The position numbers and the translations under genes are program-made. Below are positions 451 through 49,899 of a stretch of DNA of 49,899 nt, in pieces; position 1 is the stretch's first letter, and the number at the start of each line of letters is the position of its first letter. The stretch is from NCBI GenBank assembly GCA_017453245.1, contig JAFTKM010000025.1, positions 1-49,899 on the forward strand. The letters run 5' to 3'. The notes below the pieces were generated by a model. That model was given only the letters and a program-made list of their open reading frames with translations, ran no database searches and was not told the DNA's origin. Source of the DNA: Clostridia bacterium. GTDB lineage: Bacteria; Bacillota; Clostridia; Oscillospirales; CAG-272.

Positions 451-451
451 A

Positions 452-582
452 CTCCTATGTGGCGTAATTCCACCTTGTGTCCTTGGTGCTTCGCACCTTG
501 CTCCCCTTACGGTGAGCCGCCACGGAGCAATCTACGCGAGCGTCCTTGTGAGTAAACTCCCAGATCCGCTTTCGCTTGATTA
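452..582 (-). mobile_element. structured ~130-bp element, copy 1
   Basis: 131 bp that recurs at 49211-49340. About 65 bp at the 516-582 side differ at roughly four positions between copies; the centre is variable and the 13-bp end CTCCTATGTGGCG is identical. Read on the minus strand it gives a stem GCTCC-GTGGCG/CGCCAC-ATA-GGAG closing a junction that holds GCTCACC-GTAA-GGGGAGC and GGTGC-gaa-GCACC hairpins. It is preceded by a short stem-loop closed by ATCT/AGAT. Orientation is inferred from GNRA loops, which appear only on this strand. It sits in the 3' region of tldE. Confidence 0.65.
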
Positions 583-644
583 TCATGAGTGCGACACACT
601 CAATTAATGCGCTTTTGCGCAATTCATTGTAAGCGCTTTCGCGC

Positions 645-48946: not shown

Positions 48947-49171
48947 TAATAACCGTCCAAAACGTTCTTCTCTGAAATTATCCTCTATCGGTTGACATTT
49001 TATCAGATTTGTTTTTAAAACGCACGCTTTATAATTAGAAAAAGTACGTAATTAGCAAGTTTTTGACAACAATTATCAACTTTTTTGCTGTATTAAGCGC
49101 ATCTTACGCATAGCCAACACACTCTTAGCTTGAAAGATGAAACGATGATTATTTTGAAAACGGCTATAAAA
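48947..49171. other. AT-rich spacer without recognised gene
   Basis: No reading frame, RNA or repeat that I can support, apart from a TTGACA on the plus strand near 48993 that leads to no gene. Confidence 0.5.
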
Positions 49172-49199
49172 ACAAAAAATGCCCCGCTTTTGCAGGACA
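49172..49199 (-). terminator. distal copy of the rRNA-operon terminator
   Basis: On the minus strand UGUCCUGC-aaaa-GCGGGGCA (plus 49180-49199) followed by TTTTTTG; it uses G-U pairs. It is identical to the proximal copy at 49622-49649. Confidence 0.75.
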
Positions 49200-49210
49200 C
49201 CGCATATATA

Positions 49211-49340
49211 CTCCTATGTGGCGCAGTGCGTCGAGCGCACTGGTGCTGCGCGCACTTACTCACCTTTCGGTGAGTCGCCACGGAGCAATCTGCGCGAGCG
49301 TCCTTGTGAGCAAGCTCCCAGATACGCTTTCGCTTGATTA
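49211..49340 (-). mobile_element. structured ~130-bp element, copy 2
   Basis: Same element as 452-582: both ends are identical (CTCCTATGTGGCG and CGCTTGATTA on plus) and the intervening stems are conserved. On the minus strand ACTCACC-GAAA-GGTGAGT replaces GCTCACC-GTAA-GGGGAGC of copy 1, and AGTGCG-ctcga-CGCACT occupies the variable arm. It interrupts the duplicated 23S 3' flank exactly where the proximal flank copy reads straight through (around 49655-49662). Confidence 0.7.
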
Positions 49341-49460
49341 TAAAGCATACGTTGTCTAGATCAACGATGCATTGTTGACATTTGCAAATGTACATTGAAA
49401 ACCGAATAAATTTCAGAAACGAAGAAGCTCAAAAATGTGCTTACTTGAACTTAGGATGTG
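49341..49460 (-). repeat. distal copy of the 23S rRNA 3' flank
   Basis: Nearly identical to 49661-49780: both contain GCATACGTTGTCTAGATC, ATTGAAAACCGAATAAA and AAGCTCAAAAATGTGC. The block ends at AGGATG followed by CCCTCGG, reminiscent of the terminal bases of 23S (GCCCTCGG at 49787-49794), so it looks like the flank of a lost or decayed rRNA copy. Confidence 0.75.
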
Positions 49461-49544: not shown

Positions 49545-49621
49545 TCATCGGTTTTCGCGCAATTTATTGACTGAGCGAAAAACGATATTCGTATCATCGG
49601 GCTGAACACGTTAAAACACAA

Positions 49622-49649
49622 ACAAAAAATGCCCCGCTTTTGCAGGACA
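49622..49649 (-). terminator. proximal rRNA-operon terminator
   Basis: Same hairpin as 49172-49199, followed by TTTTTTG on the minus strand, about 130 bp after the 23S 3' end. Confidence 0.78.
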
Positions 49650-49660
49650 CCGCATATATA

Positions 49661-49780
49661 TAAGCATACGTTGTCTAGATCAACGATGCATTGTTGACAT
49701 TTTCAAATGCGCATTGAAAACCGAATAAATGAATTGAAACGTAAGAAGCTCAAAAATGTGCTTACTTGAACTTTAAGGAT
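49661..49780 (-). repeat. proximal 23S rRNA 3' flank (probable processing-stem half)
   Basis: Directly downstream of 23S on the minus strand. The plus-strand wording ATTGAAAACCGAATAAA resembles the spacer before bacterial 23S genes, so this is likely the 3' half of the long pre-23S stem cut by RNase III; the 5' half is outside the window. Confidence 0.6.
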
Positions 49781-49899
49781 GTTCAAGCCCTCGGTCTATT
49801 AGTATCAGTCAACTGAACACATTACTGTGCTTACATCTCTGACCTATCAAACTCGTAGTCTACAAGTGACCTTACTCATTTAAAATGATGGGATATCTC
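49781..49899 (-). rRNA. rrl: 23S ribosomal RNA, 3' end (partial)
   Basis: The complement reads ...GATACTAATAGACCGAGGGC TTGAAC at its end, the conserved 3' terminus of bacterial 23S rRNA (domain VI, pairing with the 5' end), preceded by the GTAAGGTCAC and GTTGATAGG-like helices. The gene runs past the right edge of the window on the minus strand. No 5S gene is seen in the 780 bp downstream. Confidence 0.95.

Follow-up and report, generated by a model that had tools for sequence, protein, structure and literature searches.

In the passages cited here, REP and REPIN sequences are described as non-autonomous, mostly extragenic repeats that are predicted to fold as single-stranded DNA or RNA and that spread within genomes, all of which applies to the element reported below; REPs, too, may sit inside other palindromes (PMC3116915, PMC6006769, PMC3733652). 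ERIC, RPE and RUP elements fall in the same size range as ours (RPE 105-146 bp, RUP 107 bp, ERIC 127 bp), likewise encode no protein and, by the account cited, are moved by enzymes that are mostly unidentified (PMC2229807). For the IS200/IS605 family the cited section describes a guide/target scheme, and the apparent likeness to our element would lie in the lack of duplication, a target flank that resembles the opposite end, a guide-like internal tetranucleotide and the folding of one strand (PMC6006769).

The window, meaning the whole stretch of 49,899 nucleotides that was analyzed, is one entire contig (G000:C20) of a genome whose completeness is rated 64%. It carries two copies of an element that encodes no protein, is about 125-139 bp long and runs from ATAATC to GGAGT on the minus strand. 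Copy 1 lies at 451..583 (covariance model R1, 141.6 bits) and copy 2 at 49210..49341 (R1, 127.2 bits), both on the minus strand, close to the limits of 452-582 and 49211-49340 given in the original prediction. The identical ends, the conserved block with about four differences and the diverged center described there are present as claimed, as are the changes in hairpin, tip and outer stem between the two copies; the copy 1 hairpin also contains one A.G mismatch that had been overlooked.

Compared with REPs and REPINs, the element is longer and has two domains with a three-hairpin junction. The GT[AG]G tetranucleotide that REPIN/RAYT systems carry 5' to the hairpin foot is rare: among 28 aligned copies, GGAG stands beside the 5' domain in 23, AGAG in three and GTAG in two, and this tetranucleotide is paired in the P1 helix, with double changes at two of its four pairs. 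Association with a cognate RAYT is lacking as well, the element being found at one of 17 RAYT loci. Unlike ERIC, RPE and RUP, it lacks terminal inverted repeats, and its junctions showed no target-site duplication; the same two features separate it from classical MITEs, its ends ATAATCAAG and ...GGAGT not being inverted copies of each other. In contrast to IS200/IS605-derived elements, no autonomous relative and no Y1 gene with matching ends were found, and the IS200 elements of the genus have other ends. Integron attC sites are characterized by R-box motifs and depend on an integron integrase; judged by eye, the element has no GTTRRRY junction. Because some of the features that define REPINs and IS200/IS605-derived elements are missing, the element is placed outside both families and filed as a small bacterial mobile repeat that works like either yet belongs to neither.

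Distribution and genomic context

Searches with the covariance model (E<=0.001) recovered at least 220 matches in 42 of the 69 genomes of the genus and none, under strict filters, in the other 27; the total is a lower bound because of these filters and the limited number of candidates scored. The window's own genome yields 15 BLAST rows with copy 1 and 17 model matches, far beyond chance, and BLAST with copy 1 finds matches in 8 of 39 relatives. Of 395 genomes drawn evenly across the family, 35 are matched by a second model, R2; 11 belong to this genus and the other 24 are spread over eight further genera. These 24 genomes hold one match (22) or two (2), with 13 scoring above 75 bits and 11 weak or short at 33-50 bits. 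Across the order, 4 of 295 genomes match, the window's own included, and all belong to this family. The 36 named stretches comprise 33 from ruminant-gut Clostridia MAGs, one from an Oscillospiraceae MAG and two probable chance hits. Two hits fall outside Clostridia; L204 scores 19.4 bits and L206 is not recognized by the model.

Plasmid and phage searches returned no match to the element. A virus origin was considered and rejected, as the best of 51 pattern hits in viral contigs reaches 18.9 bits, a chance level. The comparison with Rfam that the original prediction had proposed was run in both modes, covering the IscB guide RNA and HEARO, and gave no family over threshold on the element. A TnpB-type domain is likewise over cut-off in none of the 69 genomes, and so the element does not align to a known protein-coding or IS fragment by any of these searches. 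None of the titles and abstract openings listed in the literature searches names the element; one published study is said to be a large list of candidate RNAs from human microbiomes. Sub-threshold similarity to Gut-1 RNA (RF01706) occurs near elements at L006:1128-1209 (41.6 bits) and L011:1279-1357 (29.6 bits).

Analysis of ends, junctions and neighbors was based on 121 placed copies out of the 220. No ORF of at least 100 aa runs across the element in 97 of them; one does in 24, and the nine crossing ORFs that were scanned, accounting for 11 of those 24 rows, do not reach a Pfam cut-off. The upstream ORF is on the same strand in 67 copies, on the opposite strand in 44 and absent in 10, and the corresponding downstream counts are 52, 58 and 11, so that any strand bias towards neighboring ORFs is weak at most.

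With flanks read by eye, 39 of the 121 copies touch pieces of conserved genes. These include tRNA-Met-derived sequence from the anticodon on, T-arm-like and acceptor-like pieces, and 3' pieces of rplL and spoIVB. An intact tRNA-Met gene is present in all 11 of the tRNA-Met loci scanned, and the element-adjacent flanks at such loci are conserved across species. At L121:991-1283, L122:1178-1500 and similar places near tRNA-Met, a degenerate tRNA copy in inverted orientation is followed by the element and then by the 3' half of the tRNA, copied in direct orientation. The rplL gene is intact beside its 3' pieces (PF00542, E 6.1e-29); at L006:1450-2310 it is followed by partial 3' rplL copies with elements at the junctions, and a related layout occurs in one other species (L032). 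SpoIVB was identified by Pfam PF05580, both for an uninterrupted gene (L104, E 6.5e-75) and for a fragment (L274, E 1.9e-05). At L104:1003-1137 the element begins within the spoIVB stop codon, which its first base completes. Copies outside the genus adjoin T-arm-like remnants, a SpoIVB piece or a promoter-bearing repeat, as inside the genus, and no single conserved gene. The common contexts across genera suggest a shared preference, inheritance or transfer. A second dispersed repeat (CTTCTACCCG...GGTAGAATACGGGGGAAATA) often hosts the element and occurs in filled and empty forms (L080-L082, L009, L010, L012, L030, L031), and within the window, positions 61-450 beside copy 1 hold more palindromic, repeat-like sequence (CTTCCCCTTTGGGGAAGG and ATGAATT-linked hairpins).

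Fold, covariation and strand

To assess covariation, 34 placements were extracted and 28 of them aligned on the minus strand by sequence only, leaving out an identical or near-identical copy of each of two others and four partial placements. The secondary structure was written by hand and has 46 pairs. In this alignment 86.8% of 1237 cells are paired, compared with 76.5% in shuffles; changes on both sides affect 30 of the 46 pairs against 17.7 in shuffles (reached in 0 of 500), and double-change cells number 127 against 38.9. When the partner is slid by 1-3 columns, pairing falls to 28.7-43.7% and the pairs with double changes to 9-17. A ranking made without reference to structure places 13 structure pairs among the top 40 covarying column pairs, where 0.2 are expected; the other 27 are not structure pairs. 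The 98 model matches in 80 fetched loci have double changes at all 46 pairs and 906 double-change cells against 262, in an alignment that was fitted to the structure and therefore leans towards it, four weak matches included. The element's fold is strongly selected, and the proposal that the stems covary and that shape is under selection holds with more copies than the two on which it was made.

The predicted fold has two domains. In copy 1 the 5' domain (529..583, minus strand) is a long hairpin in which the helix AAUC/GAUU closes helices 2 and 3 and the apical GAG-UUUA-CUC, as drawn from helices 1-3 of the 28-copy alignment and predicted folds. The 3' domain (451..527, minus strand; helices 4-8) consists of P1 (CUCC/GGAG plus GUGGCG/CGCCAC), which closes three hairpins, the middle one containing GCGAAGC. 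Short relatives of about 70 nt are without the three hairpins. The closing stem originally proposed, ATCTG with TAGAT or CAGAT, has no double changes and does no better than shuffles; it was rejected, and AAUC paired with GAUU takes its place. This helix is nearly invariant in the 28-copy alignment and by itself thus says little. Each of its four pairs has double changes in the structure-fitted 98-match alignment, in at most six sequences at any one pair, and a divergent short relative (L165) has ATACC/GGTAT at the presumed guide helix, as read by eye. We also considered a further outer stem around the element as a structural part. A perfect match of at least 10 bp between left and right flanks occurs in 12 of 118 copies, several of them from the tRNA-Met group, against 1.5% of mismatched pairs, and flank duplex energy ranks below 5% in 13 of 104 copies where about five are expected; such a stem is perhaps real for a minority and does not define the element.

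The minus strand folds better, as the original prediction had it: of six copies, all have the lower RNA folding z-score on the element strand and five also the lower DNA z-score, the exception being L018, where the DNA score favors the other strand (-4.08 versus -3.05). After removal of the four weakest of the 98 model matches, mismatches on the element strand were counted in the remaining 94 rows. G.U occupies 118 cells and A.C 85, but 46 of the latter fall at one doubtful pair, without which the counts are 117 and 39. G.A and A.G together occupy 220 cells and C.U and U.C 25. The contrast between G.U and A.C is weak in the 28-copy alignment (44 against 36), where G.A/A.G and C.U/U.C stand at 68 and 18. 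Of 94 copies, 63 have the motif GCGNAGC on the element strand and 46 have it on the opposite one, whereas it occurs in 4.9% of shuffles. According to the cited part of the source, DNA mini-hairpins that combine a GNA loop with G-C pairs have extraordinary stability (PMC4686876). The loops and the insertion geometry fit single-stranded DNA no less well than RNA, and we lean towards the former. The earlier reading therefore stands in part. A selected shape and a folding minus strand are borne out, while the opposition of an RNA to a plain repeat finds no support, the element being a dispersed and apparently mobile repeat with a selected shape.

Ends and insertion sites

The 5' end is close to fixed, with ATAATC conserved per base in the 121 copies as A120, T117, A119, A118, T111 and C113, and the 3' end is GGAGT in most. 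The first base 3' of the element is A in 120 of 121 copies and the second is T in 82, the remaining target being loosely TTAT-like. Three pairs within single genomes are 97.7% identical in the element and less than 60% identical in their flanks (L087/L089 in G070, L083/L084 in G046 and the L111 pair in G056). Gapless head-to-tail copies occur at L077, L078 (three copies) and L079. Taken together, the element is very probably a mobile element rather than an ordinary RNA gene.

Joining the flanks yields uninterrupted counterparts for 63 copies, of which five carry a tandem-related tag and a few others look similar; many of these "empty sites" are other repeat copies or related genes rather than orthologous loci. 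The window contains such a pair. Copy 2 sits downstream of, and on the same strand as, the 3' end of a 23S rRNA gene (49779..49899, minus strand, Rfam RF02541), in a spacer unit recognized by self-match (49163..49450), and sequence comparison finds a second unit of this spacer without the element at 49620..49780. The filled site reads CCGCATATAT[element]AAAGCATACG and the empty one CCGCATATATATAAGCATACG. At L090 the element splits GSP from IIQ of a SpoIVB-type sequence, with both flanks in one reading frame. No target-site duplication was seen at junctions in the 63 rows with uninterrupted counterparts. In 20 of them an extra base stands two positions ahead of the 5' junction (CCC-G to CCCAG, GGCT-C to GGCTAC); by our own count these fall in about nine contexts and so do not represent 20 events. 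One base is missing instead from the window pair and from L154. We know of nothing in IS605 chemistry that predicts a one-base addition or loss.

Mobilization and alternative explanations

On balance, the element appears to be a non-autonomous REPIN/ERIC-like element mobilized as a folded single strand, probably single-stranded DNA, with IS200/IS605-like geometry. The ATAATC...GGAGT strand would be processed in single-stranded form, most likely as ssDNA, and its two-domain fold recognized by an enzyme acting in trans. In plus-strand terms, a short, often TTAT-like target would lie beyond the left end; the right end of the element closes with GATTAT, and the internal AATC, pairing with GATT, would occupy the position of a guide tetranucleotide. 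Because the element's own right end resembles the target, insertion beside itself may account for the gapless tandems.

None of the Y1, RAYT, RT, TnpB and IS110 families tracks the element in the 69 genomes of the genus. Y1_Tnp exceeds its cut-off in 15 genomes (11 of 42 carriers and 4 of 27 non-carriers, p 0.37), RVT_1 in 11 (4 of 42 and 7 of 27, p 0.095) and IS110 in one. RAYT-like proteins occur in 16 (6 of 42 and 10 of 27, p 0.04, rarer in carriers); the class assignment rests on NCBIfam REP_Tyr_transpos at 75.8 bits, below its cut-off of 80, on Pfam Y1_Tnp at 31.9 bits and on similarity to the solved TnpA-REP 4er8 (E 0.0014). Altogether 25 of the 42 carriers have none of Y1, RAYT and RT, including G049, which is 98% complete and has 16 copies. 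As MAGs are incomplete, absence from a single genome is weak evidence; absence from many genomes, G049 among them, carries more weight. The 13 IS200 loci of the genus have ends that look different from the element's by eye. IS200-type elements lie directly after terminator-like hairpins in L036, L162, L165, L172 and others, again by eye. It is possible, at lower confidence, that an enzyme foreign to the known HUH Y1, RAYT, RT and TnpB systems moves this folded-strand element. The insertion signature would then be new, marked by the lack of duplication, an A that is almost always present downstream, in many cases a base gained two positions ahead of the junction, and a preference for the 3' portions of tRNA genes and further conserved genes.

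A structured RNA with a cellular function, either as a small RNA or as an mRNA element, could have spread secondarily, much as SINEs arose from host RNAs. Compensatory change at every modeled pair of the structure-fitted alignment, purine-rich loops and G.A pairs on one strand, and the one or two matches held by each of the 24 genomes in other genera are all consistent with this explanation. We nevertheless consider it unlikely, since the copies outside the genus stand in the same scattered contexts rather than at one conserved gene, orientation to neighboring ORFs is at most weakly biased, and under strict filters 27 of the 69 genus genomes have no match. An element mobilized as RNA, such as a small ribozyme or a group II-like retroelement inserting by reverse splicing, would leave duplication-free junctions, and one junction does fall in the anticodon loop of a tRNA-Met-derived sequence; an intact tRNA-Met gene in all 11 such loci scanned makes splicing unneeded there. 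With RVT_1 in only 4 of 42 carriers and no intron or ribozyme family of Rfam reaching threshold on the element, we judge this route improbable.

The RAYT was followed as a mobilizer because in G070 one such gene is separated from a copy by 308 bp; a RAYT-like gene is also encoded in the window's own genome, at G000:C12:6604-7092 (L322:2605-3093). It was dropped on the locus scan, the other hairpins and the carrier counts: 16 of the 17 RAYT loci scanned (L292-L308) are without the element, three carry another hairpin, GTAGGGCGGGGGC..., both inside and beside the gene, GTAGGGGAGGGGC... flanks the RAYT of G070 on both sides, and RAYT is rarer in carriers than in non-carriers. That the element is the cognate REP of the genus RAYT, and hence a REPIN, is accordingly a shade less credible than reverse splicing. 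A GTAG-tagged REP-like hairpin, GTAGGGCGGGGGCTTGCTCCCGCCG, lies inside the coordinates of the RAYT-like gene in L322, with similar ones both within and beside such genes in L323 and L324. Lastly, the element is short, dispersed, structured and fixed at one end, as a TnpB/IscB-type guide RNA or its remnant might be; PF07282 is over cut-off in none of the 69 genomes, where six control genomes were positive, and without an Rfam match this origin is very improbable.

The mobile, folded single strand that we prefer carries a warning, in that covariation by itself does not make a sequence an RNA gene. Here the covariation is clean enough for the fold itself to be read as the likely mobilization signal. 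Since filled and empty sites coexist in a single genome and related species are numerous, both the insertion chemistry and the enzyme responsible become testable.
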